Shown one piece after another: positions 2,999-44,965 of a stretch of DNA of 47,412 nt. The position numbers were made by a program, and so were the translations under genes. Within the stretch, counting starts at the first letter, position 1. The number at the start of each line of letters is the position of its first letter. This DNA is from Candidatus Competibacteraceae bacterium. GTDB lineage: Bacteria; Pseudomonadota; Gammaproteobacteria; Competibacterales; JAHEDQ01. The stretch is taken from the NCBI GenBank assembly GCA_024641125.1, contig JAHEDQ010000008.1:1-47412 (forward strand), read 5' to 3'. The notes beneath the pieces were generated by a model, which did no database searches, was not told the DNA's origin, and saw only the letters and a list, made by a program, of their open reading frames with translations.

Positions 2999-3387
2999 TA
3001 CTCATCCCCCATTGATGGGCACAACACCCTTTTATAATTGGCGACGGGCAACTGTCTGAACCGCCCGTCGTCACCGGTAGCCGGTGTTTTCAACATAGCA
3101 GAGCGAGGGGTTTTCGCCAGTCGCACCGGCACCCGCCGGACGGCTCAGTGGCTCTGGCGTGGCCATTTCGAGGACTGCGCCGTAGCCGGGGAGTACACTT
3201 TGGCTGAGCCGGGTGTGTATGGGTGCCATCCGAGTCCACCGCGGAGATGCCTTGTGAGTGAACTGATCGATGCGCGAGGGCGAATTCGGGCGGCGGTGGG
3301 TGTCGCCGTTGGCCGGTCCGCCCTGCCCGCTTTGTTCCGGGAAATTCTTTTGCCGCCCATCGAAGGCGCCGGCTGAGCCGACGCCCG

Positions 3388-4887
3388 ATGCGCCTCTGGC
3401 GGATCGCAGCGGGGCTGTTGCTCACCGGAGCCTGCTGCGCCGTGTGGGCGGATGACCGACAAACCCCGGTACAGCTAGAAGCCCGCGAGGGCGAGGAATC
3501 CGAAGAATCTGAAGCGCCCGATCTGCTGGAACGCCTCACCGAAAGAAACGACAAACGCATCGAATTGGATCCCTATCGCATCGGACTTGCCGGGCGGCTT
3601 CTGAGTATCGGCGGACAATACGAGCTTGGCTACGAACGGATACACAGCGGCGGCCGACGTCCAGACCTGGAACTGCGGCGCGGCAGTGAATTGGCACAGG
3701 AACTTGAGCTGGAAGCGTTTTATCGTTTCGATTCTCACCAATCCGTATTCGCTCAGGGGCGGTTGGTCATGGTGGACGAGCGCTACGGGGAATCCGACGC
3801 CGATGAGCTGATCAAATACGCCGAGCGGGGGGAAATGTGGTACCGCTACGAGGCGATTGCCGGATCCGAATGGGTGTTTGACATTGGTCGAATCGACTAT
3901 CAGGACCCGCGCCACTGGTGGTGGGACGATGAACTGGACTCGGTTCGCATGACCTATGAGGGCGCTGGTCTGGTGTTCAGCGCCGCCCTGGCCAAGGAAC
4001 TGGGCGGCGTCAGAAGCAACCTGAACGTTCTGGCAGCGGACGAAAAGGGCGTGGTCCGCGGGCTGGCGGCGGTGAGCTGGACCTGGGCGGACAATCAATC
4101 GGCGCAGCTGTTTCTGCTGCATCAGAACGATGATTCTACCCGGTTGCAGCCGGACGATTTCGCCCGGCCCGATCAGGAGGACCCGTCCGATGCGAATCTG
4201 ACCTGGTTCGGTGGCCTTGTGACCGGCGTATTTGAGCTGCCCAGCCCGGGGCTTCTGGGCTATTGGCTGAACGGCGGTTGGGTGAAAGGAACCGAACACC
4301 TCACCGTTTTCGAGGACGAGCATGACGAGGGGTTGCGGGCAGAAGCCGTGCGCCGGCGAAAGGTCAATGGCTGGGCCATGGATGCCGGCCTGAGCTGGAT
4401 GCCGGACTGGTCCTGGGAGCCCCGTTTTTTCGCTGGCTACGCCTATGGTTCGGGGGATTCGGATCCAGAATCGAAACACGATAGAGCGTTTCGTCAAACC
4501 GGCCTGGAATCAAACGATGCCGGCTTCGGGGGCGTAGAAGAGTTCCCCAACTACGGCATTCTGATCAACCCGGAATTGTCAAACCTCGGTATCGCCACCG
4601 TGGGTGTCGGCGGCGCCCTGTTCCGGGCAAGTTCCCTGGATCTGGTCTATCACCACTATCGCCTGGCCGACCCGGCGGAGATCCTGCGGGATGCCAACAT
4701 CGAGGTGGAACTGACCGGAAACGACCGGGACTTCGGCCAGGCGCTGGACCTGGTGCTGGCACTAGAGGAATGGAAGCAGATAGAACTGTTGTTGACTGTT
4801 TCCGCCTTTCGGGCGGGTCGCGCCTTCGGCAGAGATCACGGCGAGATGAGCTATGGGGGATTCGCCGGTTTGCGCATTACCTTCTGA
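3388..4887 (+). CDS. Alginate-export (AlgE-like) outer-membrane beta-barrel protein
   Basis: Signal peptide, RGSELAQELELEAFYRF and DIGRIDYQDPRHWWWDDELDSVRMTYEG segments typical of the alginate export domain, C-terminal aromatic (GLRITF). Confidence 0.75.
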   Translation: MRLWRIAAGLLLTGACCAVWADDRQTPVQLEAREGEESEESEAPDLLERLTERNDKRIELDPYRIGLAGRLLSIGGQYELGYERIHSGGRRPDLELRRGSELAQELELEAFYRFDSHQSVFAQGRLVMVDERYGESDADELIKYAERGEMWYRYEAIAGSEWVFDIGRIDYQDPRHWWWDDELDSVRMTYEGAGLVFSAALAKELGGVRSNLNVLAADEKGVVRGLAAVSWTWADNQSAQLFLLHQNDDSTRLQPDDFARPDQEDPSDANLTWFGGLVTGVFELPSPGLLGYWLNGGWVKGTEHLTVFEDEHDEGLRAEAVRRRKVNGWAMDAGLSWMPDWSWEPRFFAGYAYGSGDSDPESKHDRAFRQTGLESNDAGFGGVEEFPNYGILINPELSNLGIATVGVGGALFRASSLDLVYHHYRLADPAEILRDANIEVELTGNDRDFGQALDLVLALEEWKQIELLLTVSAFRAGRAFGRDHGEMSYGGFAGLRITF

Positions 4888-11135: not shown

Positions 11136-11250
11136 GGTGGCAATCCGTACCAGCCACACCCCGGCGCCCGAAGCCACTGTTACCGTTGCTCCCTTCCGGG
11201 CCTGGCGGGGTTCACAGTTTCTCGTCGCGAGGGGACCGGTACGGATCACC
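11136..11250 (-). ncRNA. ffs: Bacterial small SRP RNA (4.5S-type)
   Basis: Minus strand contains the SRP RNA core ccgccaggcccggaagggagcaacggtaacag; termini pair (ggtgatccgtacc / ggtacggattgccacc); adjacent upstream of dnaX. Confidence 0.92.
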
Positions 11251-17005: not shown

Positions 17006-17462
17006 GAAAGCGTACTGTTACCCCTGGCGATGGTATTTGCTTTGACCTGGCGCGGCGGGAGGTGCCGGAAAACCATCAACGCTGCGGAAATTCAGCCGTT
17101 TTGGGCGGCACAACGGCGCACCATCAGAATAGGCGGCGCACAGCCTTGACGGGCTGCAGGGTGTTACTCTAAGGAAGGTCTGAACATTTGATACGAATCG
17201 CGTTTCGGTCCTCAAGAGCGCAGAGTCGAGGCTCCCGGCGCAAAGCCATAGTCATTCTATGGCCAAGCCGGGAAACGCGGCAGATGTGCCCTTGTGGGCG
17301 AAACCCCGGAGGGGCCGGGCCTTTGCGCCCCTCGAACCGCGTTGCACCTCGCTCGTTGGCATCTTACTCATTTGCCTTGGACCAACTTCGCTCGGTGCGT
17401 CCCGTCTGGGAGAGCGCAAAGACCCCGGCGCGATCGCAGCAATCGATCAGACCTTCCCTGGT

Positions 17463-17620
17463 GCGCCGCTGATTTATTCTTGACGAAGCAGATTGGAGGC
17501 TGAGATGCGCGGGTTCAAGGCGCATGTTGCGGGTAATAGGGGTTCTATTGCCAAGATTTGCAACGATGAAGCTGTACATTCCGGTCACAGAATGCACGTC
17601 CAGGACTAGATCAGAGACGC
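17463..17620 (-). repeat. MITE-like dispersed repeat, copy A
   Basis: Reverse complement aligns ungapped over about 135 bp with 44381..44517; imperfect terminal inverted repeats (gcgccgctgatttattc ... tagatcagagacgc). Confidence 0.8.
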
Positions 17621-17669
17621 CCCAGGTCCACGCTCGCCATTTCGACAAACCCGCCCCTGCTCTGGAAAC

Positions 17670-18650
17670 ATGTCTGATCGCAAGCCCAGTGACATCCAAG
17701 CAGACGATGGCCCTGGAGACATCGGGGTCAGTATCTGGCTACTGCTGCTGGCGTTGGCCGACCTGCGTCGCCACGGCACCTGGCCCGACCGGGCGATGGG
17801 CTTTTGCCTGTCAGCGGGCGGCGCTCTGGTAACCACGCCGGCGACGGACTCGCGAGCACGCCTGACATGGGGCGCTGAGGGTCTTGCGCCGGCCCAGGGT
17901 GAGCTCCCCGGCAGCCGGGATCTGGTTGATCTGTACTCGCCATTGTTCCCAGCCAACACGGCGGACCCACTGGCCGTGGCGCATCTTGGGCAAAGCATCG
18001 ACGCGCGGATCGCGACCCAATCGGGGGACTCCTGTTTCGTGACCGGGCCCGAGAACATTGTCCACCTGCATCGCATGCGAGCCCTGTGCGATGCGGTGAT
18101 CGTAGGCGCCGGCACGGTGGACGCGGACAATCCACGGCTGACCACCCGCCTGGTGCAGGGACCGAATCCGGTTCGGATCGTGATCGATCCGGAGCGGCGG
18201 ATTTCGCCGGAAGTGGGTGTGTTCAACGACGGCGCGGCCTGTACACTGCTCGTGTGCGCGGCGGATCGGGTCACCGCCAGGGACAGCGACCAGGCCGTCA
18301 TCGGACTCCCACGCCGTAACCACGGCCTGTGTTTGCCGACCCTCATGTCCGCGCTGCAACACCGGGGTTTGCGAAATCTTTTCATAGAAGGGGGCGGCGT
18401 CACGGTTTCGCGCTGGATGACAGCGGGACTGCTGAAGCGCCTGCATGTGACGGTGGCACCGGTGTTCATTGGCGAGGGTCGCGCATCGCTTGGACTGCCC
18501 CCGGCAACGGCCATGGCATCGTGTCTGCGGCCCGATTGCCGTGTGTTTCGGCTGGGTAAAGACCTGTTGTGGGATTTCGATCTCAGCGGTGATCACCCGA
18601 GCGAATCGAAACCGACGTCGCAACCGCAGGGGCCACGACGGGTGTGCTGA
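17670..18650 (+). CDS. RibD C-terminal/dihydrofolate-reductase-like reductase with extra N-terminal region
   Basis: AVAHLGQSIDARIATQSGDS, MRALCDAVIVGAGTVDADNPRLTTR, NLFIEGGGVTVSRWMTAGLLKRLHVTVAPVFIGEG. Confidence 0.85.
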   Translation: MSDRKPSDIQADDGPGDIGVSIWLLLLALADLRRHGTWPDRAMGFCLSAGGALVTTPATDSRARLTWGAEGLAPAQGELPGSRDLVDLYSPLFPANTADPLAVAHLGQSIDARIATQSGDSCFVTGPENIVHLHRMRALCDAVIVGAGTVDADNPRLTTRLVQGPNPVRIVIDPERRISPEVGVFNDGAACTLLVCAADRVTARDSDQAVIGLPRRNHGLCLPTLMSALQHRGLRNLFIEGGGVTVSRWMTAGLLKRLHVTVAPVFIGEGRASLGLPPATAMASCLRPDCRVFRLGKDLLWDFDLSGDHPSESKPTSQPQGPRRVC

Positions 18651-43893: not shown

Positions 43894-44360
43894 GTCTCGC
43901 TTTGCGCCACGCTGCACCGTCTCGCTATAGCGTAGGGCAACCTAGGGGCCAATGCAGACGAGTCCATCCTGGAATCCCCCTATAATGCTGTTTTTGTTAA
44001 TGAACATGAGCCTCAACCGGCCCAGAGTGCGATTCAAGGCAAGGTGTCCAATGTCTCCGGTTGCACCGTTTTAGAGAACATGGACAGAGATGACGCCCAG
44101 ATTTGGGGCGCCGCAAGGCCGGTGTGCGATTACAGGCAAATATCCCTGTTCCGACCGCTGAACAGCGCCTTTCGGATGAAACGACGATCCGACGAACCAA
44201 AACGCGATTGCCGGCACCCAGTGTGCTGTCCCGTTGAGTTCGTTGCATTTCAGCGGGGCGAGCAGCGCCCAGGCGCCAGGCGGGCGGGCGCAGAACGGGC
44301 CTGCGCTTATTCAAGCGCGCCCGGCACCGAGGATGGGCGTTATTGCCTTGCCCGCCGGGC

Positions 44361-44517
44361 GCGCCGCTGATCTATTCGTGAACGTGCATCTTGGGACTGA
44401 GATGCACAGCTTCATCGTTGCAAATCCTGGCAATAGAACCGCTATTACCCGCGATCTGTGCCTTGAAGCTGCACATTTCACCCGCCAATCTGCTTCGTTC
44501 AGAAGAAATCAGACGCT
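44361..44517 (+). repeat. MITE-like dispersed repeat, copy B
   Basis: Ungapped alignment with the reverse complement of 17463..17620; shared core cagcttcatcgttgcaaatc(c/t)tggcaatagaacc(g/c)ctattacccgc. Confidence 0.8.
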
Positions 44518-44539
44518 CCCCTGGCCACCCATACCCGCG

Positions 44540-44965
44540 CTACTCCAACACCAGTACCGCTGTTCGCGAGTGCTGCACGACCTTGTCAGTGTTGCCGCCC
44601 AGCAGGAAGTGACGGCGCGGACCACCTTTTCGCGTCATGATGATCAGATCGCACGGGATCTCTTCGCCGGTTTTCAGTATCTGCTCGTACACCGACCCAA
44701 CGGCTACGATGCTTTGCTTGGTAATCCCTTCGGGTATGTGCTCCGCGACGAAGGCGTGCAGTTCTTTCACGACCTGCGCGTGCGCCTTCTGCTCGAAGTC
44801 CACGGGGAAGAAACTCTCTACCGACGGATAATCGAAACTGGGTACGACGCTCATTATGTGCAATGTCGCCCCGCAGTTTTGCGCCAGATAGATCCCAGCC
44901 TCCAGGGGTTTCTCCCAAGTCACCGGGTCACTGATACTGATGGGTATTAGAATGTCCCTGAACAT
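44540..44965 (-). CDS. UspA-family universal stress protein
   Basis: MFRDILIPISISDP start, LIIMTRKGG, HFLLGGNTDKVVQHSRTAVLVLE (nucleotide-binding loop). Confidence 0.93.
   Translation of the reverse strand: MFRDILIPISISDPVTWEKPLEAGIYLAQNCGATLHIMSVVPSFDYPSVESFFPVDFEQKAHAQVVKELHAFVAEHIPEGITKQSIVAVGSVYEQILKTGEEIPCDLIIMTRKGGPRRHFLLGGNTDKVVQHSRTAVLVLE

Follow-up and report, generated by a model that had tools for sequence, protein, structure and literature searches.

The window, i.e. the whole stretch of 47,412 nucleotides that was analyzed from a Candidatus Competibacteraceae bacterium (contig JAHEDQ010000008.1), contains two copies of a dispersed palindromic repeat, termed copy A and copy B (Table 1). 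Copy A ends 48 bp upstream of the ATG of an open reading frame with a RibD_C domain, and thus lies just upstream of that gene as had been described. The first-pass annotation placed the repeat at positions 17463–17620. The repeat is real, but analysis of the inverted repeats and the target duplication gives a length of 160 bp, and the earlier limits are therefore short by one base on each side.

Table 1. Positions of copies A and B, their parts and the adjacent features in the window
Feature	Position	Strand	Remarks
MITE copy A, full 160 bp	17462..17621	+	135/160 identical to family consensus
Copy A left terminal inverted repeat, TGCGCCGCTGATTTATTC	17462..17479	+	consensus GGAGCCTCTGATTTATTC
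Copy A right terminal inverted repeat	17604..17621	-	consensus GGAGCCTCTGATCTATTC read inward
Copy A left target copy, CTGG	17458..17461	.	common to right flank of neighboring 285-bp element
Copy A right target copy, CCAG	17622..17625	.	decayed YTAR duplication
Second, different IS5-like palindromic MITE, GGAAGGTCTGAAC...GATCAGACCTTCC	17173..17457	+	abuts copy A target
RibD_C-domain open reading frame (PF01872, 118 bits)	17670..18650	+	ATG at 17670
MITE copy B, full 160 bp	44360..44519	-	147/160 identical to family consensus
Universal stress protein gene	44540..44965	-	stop codon 20 bp upstream of copy B

Alignment of copy A with copy B (BLAST against the window) shows 129 identical positions out of 158, or 82%, in opposite orientation and with an E-value of 4e-40. 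The alignment is free of gaps, as first described, but it spans 158 bp and not the approximately 135 bp given earlier. The imperfect inverted repeats noted at the ends are present in copy A and correspond to 18-bp inverted repeats in the family consensus. Copy B is closer to the consensus than copy A, which belongs to the more decayed copies; the tetramers that flank copy A, CTGG and CCAG, agree at only two of four positions.

Several other repeats are found in the window. The element at 17173–17457 is flanked by CTAA and CTGG, the latter being common to copy A, and has 47 matches in the genome, of which about a dozen are near full length. Next to copy B, at about 44220–44355, lies a third dispersed repeat, about 135 bp long, which has 41 genome matches with 75%–94% identity. 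The sequence at about 38483–38575 matches a further repeat family that is present in loci L022, L112 and L150, and positions 11145–11241 of the minus strand encode a bacterial small SRP RNA (RF00169).

The genome searched consists of 4.76 Mb in 357 contigs. With copy A as query, 40 places display 80%–85% identity (the best 40 of 173 candidates), and a profile HMM made from 30 copies gives at least 152 matches, i.e. at least about 150 copies. The end sequence GAGCCTCTGATYTATTC, with two or fewer mismatches, occurs 184 times (95 + 89) versus 0 for the reversed control pattern. In view of the HMM matches and the end pattern, the similarity between copies A and B is not due to chance. It is also not a matter of two copies only that are remnants of a duplicated gene, which the first-pass annotation had named as the opposing case. 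The many intergenic copies expected from a genome search are present: of 109 copies classified with a simple hexamer gene caller, 108 lie between genes, in a genome whose coding share, estimated from the window, is about 86%. The consensus matched no plasmid and no phage, and carriage by either was ruled out.

The consensus is 160 bp in length (GGAGCCTCTGATTTATTC ... GAATAGATCAGAGGCTCC) with 18-bp terminal inverted repeats, and this short sequence has no coding capacity for a transposase. The length is nearly constant: of the 94 copies with both ends recognizable, 62 have a length of exactly 160 bp and 84 fall within 159–161 bp. Divergence from the consensus is 4%–24% (median 11.6%), and the copies in this genome look old. 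Their orientation relative to flanking genes is unbiased (37 −−, 35 ++, 18 −+ and 18 +−). A search of copy A revealed neither a promoter-like nor a terminator-like site. Given this and the lack of orientation bias, an effect of copy A on RibD_C transcription is possible but unsupported.

The flanking tetramers of the 94 bounded copies have the consensus YTAR on both sides. Left and right flanks were re-paired at random in 1000 shuffles, a procedure that keeps the site preference and loses true duplications. In the 4-bp register 226 positions agree versus 170 after re-pairing, and none of the 1000 shuffles reaches 226; identical flanking tetramers number 12 versus 3.7. By the same test, duplication lengths of 2, 3, 5, 6 and 8 bp do not reach significance, and the 9-bp register is marginal (P 0.03). 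The outer positions of the tetramer, 0 and 3, are paired above expectation (0/1000 shuffles), and copies with non-TA tetramers have all four bases duplicated, e.g. CTCA. The target duplications that had been predicted are thus present, with a length of 4 bp and a YTAR target.

Empty sites in relatives, also predicted, were found for a family member other than copy A. In the Lamellibrachia barhami endosymbiont one copy (L177, about 3335–3494) is flanked by two copies of TTAA, and the site is empty in three relatives and in one paralogous locus of the same genome, where a single TTAA is found with continuous flanks. Precise insertion is thereby demonstrated for the family by the Lamellibrachia copy rather than copy A; among the loci of its own genome that were compared, no empty site was found. 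In a fourth relative (G076; L319) an unrelated short insert is located at the stop/start junction where genome G060 carries the MITE, and this junction is a possible insertion hot spot.

Elements of the IS5 family display the same ends. A complete IS5-family element in an Ectothiorhodospiraceae MAG (L243) has the structure TTAG|GGAGACACTGATTTATTC...GCATTAGATCAGCGTTTCC|CTAG, with ends GGAGACACTGATTTATTC and GGAAACGCTGATCTAATG. Its transposase scores 341 bits to NF033581 (IS5 family; cut-off 140) and also has the Pfam domains DDE_Tnp_1 and DUF772. The left end has GATT and the right end GATC, a T/C difference that is common to the MITE and the L243 element. Another IS5 element (L311, genome G071) has the left end CTAA|GGAAGCTCTGATTTATTC, which matches the left end of the G072 MITE at 18 of 18 positions. 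Within the same class, genome G053 has both an IS5 element with the end GGCATCTCTGATTAAGTC, found at many contig ends, and a dispersed 160-bp relative of the MITE with the end GGAACCTCTGATTAAGTC. The MITE therefore resembles NF033581-type IS5 elements in its GGARNCTCTGATTTATTC-type ends, the GATT/GATC difference, the YTAR target and the 4-bp duplication. It differs from those seen in that it has no transposase and its interior beyond the ends is unlike that of the autonomous elements.

As there are IS5-family elements whose ends match and whose target is YTAR, the mover of the family is, on this sequence comparison, very probably an IS5-type transposase. A DUF772 search of the organism's own, fragmented genome found no intact IS5 element with matching ends. 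The two matches are a frameshifted IS5-like gene without matching ends and an unrelated type of transposase, and neither was accepted as an autonomous partner. The family is therefore probably immobile at present in this genome, as judged from a fragmented assembly. The GATC kept in the right inverted repeat is a Dam site. The transposition of IS10 is coupled to replication, and by analogy the right-end GATC could provide such coupling.

The element is not confined to this organism. The end-sequence pattern detects 79 stretches among the genome contigs searched, nearly all of them from Gammaproteobacteria, and 53 match the same element body. It was found in 13 of 15 other genomes tested, most of which have 3–55 copies; genome G070 has only two weak matches. 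None of 39 genomes searched from the same order has the element, and its distribution is therefore patchy. The 18-bp IS5-type left end is also found around unrelated bodies in Nitrococcus mobilis (L193, L198, L236) and in Dyella (L172, L218, L235, L249), where in fact both ends are present. From these cases a single end sequence seems to mobilize many different MITE bodies.

The consensus plus strand forms a single long hairpin that encompasses the whole element (−91 kcal/mol); RNA folding had been named as a check on the MITE-like character. Consensus sequences from 12 other genomes are 69%–78% identical to that of the own genome. Over the 13 lineage consensuses, 92.7% of the pairs are kept versus 84.6% with shuffled partners, and both partners have changed in 27 of 67 pairs, compared with a mean of 13.5 and a maximum of 20 in shuffles and with 5–9 for slid pairings. 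Among the 130 copies of the own genome there is no such compensatory excess (48 versus 52 expected; 87.3% paired versus 87.3%). Some other genomes do have an excess among their own copies, as would be expected if these contain several subfamilies.

On the plus strand, G-T accounts for more of the non-Watson-Crick pairs than A-C does (146 versus 77, counted in a total of 21 consensuses or single copies). When only pairs with Watson-Crick matching in four or more genomes are considered, the counts are 52 and 12, with p = 0.015 in a sign test over positions. Shared ancestry inflates these counts, thus the G-T excess is suggestive and not proven. A mutational strand bias as its origin was ruled out, as inserted copies mutate slightly in the opposite way (C>T 4.9% versus G>A 6.0%).

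These data suggest that the hairpin matters for spreading and not for the host: successful sources would need a foldable strand, and inserted copies would be of no service to the host. We infer on this basis that a source needs the long hairpin in order to spread. A more specific proposal is that source elements are selected to fold single-stranded, as RNA or, at the replication fork, as ssDNA, with a preference for one strand, and that a hairpin is required for the spread of DDE (IS5-type) MITEs; we consider this a tentative idea and more doubtful than not. Equally speculative is the accompanying view that the palindrome may be renewed only in actively jumping lineages, with neutral decay following insertion.

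The evidence is best explained by copy A being a decayed full-length type II MITE of 160 bp with 18-bp ends, mobilized in trans by an IS5-family transposase of the NF033581 group with a YTAR target and a 4-bp duplication, one source having given rise to about 150 intergenic copies. We assign this a probability of about 93%. The MITE-like character first proposed is borne out by the copy number, the inverted-repeat ends, the 4-bp YTAR duplications, the intergenic copies, the empty sites of the family and the hairpin. In the proposed mechanism, an IS5-family DDE transposase would act in trans on the non-autonomous MITE and would cut at YTAR, which leaves the 4-bp duplication. A single source element would have produced the about 150 intergenic copies of this genome, and these would later have drifted 4%–24% from the consensus. 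We likewise infer that these particular copies owe their movement to an IS5-type transposase.

The very stable plus-strand fold, together with the compensatory changes and G-T wobbles across lineage consensuses, might also be expected of a regulatory or RNA element useful to the host (a riboswitch, sRNA or mRNA-stability hairpin) that is under selection at each site. However the copies within the genome lack compensatory excess and are oriented without bias to neighboring genes, copy A has no promoter or terminator, and a covariance-model search of Rfam found no match to the element even at E ≤ 1. On the absence of an Rfam match and of compensatory evolution among own-genome copies a functional RNA was rejected, and we regard this explanation as quite improbable. 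The same compensatory changes between lineages and the wobble strand bias, as well as the long palindrome and the intergenic location, would be compatible with a REP/REPIN- or IS200/IS605-type element that is moved as ssDNA by an HUH (Y1) transposase. To our knowledge HUH elements make no target duplication, whereas a 4-bp duplication in excess of the shared site preference is present here, along with clean TTAA empty sites in the Lamellibrachia endosymbiont and IS5-type ends. Although REPINs too are reported to have hairpins with compensatory changes, and resemble the family further in that copies are dispersed extragenically (PMC3116915), we consider this explanation very improbable.

An IS630/Tc1-like or Correia-like MITE that duplicates only TA has in its favor that the YTAR target has TA at its core and that Correia-like MITEs are long hairpins. 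This is contradicted by the 4-bp register. The pairing of the outer tetramer positions, the duplication of all four bases at non-TA tetramers and the IS5 identity of the related autonomous elements also argue against it, and we give it almost no weight.

Among the known repeats, Correia elements duplicate TA, and ERIC sequences differ from the present family in sequence, length and ends as well as in target site. REPINs differ from it in being linked to RAYT (HUH) transposases and in having no target duplication. ERIC is palindromic and intergenic as is the family, and enterobacterial genomes carry 30–711 copies of it each (PMC10969869). Chunjie, QMITE2 and Correia are among the type II bacterial MITEs covered by a review (PMC10969869), and the family shares with this type a length below 500 bp, terminal repeats, duplications that have faded with age, an intergenic location and a strong stem-loop. 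It differs from Chunjie, QMITE2 and Correia in sequence and ends and in that it occurs in many orders of Gammaproteobacteria with a length that stays close to 160 bp. A literature text search for the end sequence found no match to a 15-mer, and the nine matches to a 12-mer were all unrelated in topic; an earlier description of this widespread IS5-derived MITE family was thus not found by that search.

The family is real but is largely an ordinary selfish element. With about 150 copies between the genes of this genome, it is useful for annotation. Its significance is that of a palindromic IS5-type MITE kept at nearly constant length across distant gammaproteobacterial orders, and it offers a natural test of when the hairpin of a mobile element is selected, i.e. 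between source lineages and not among the inserted copies of the own genome.
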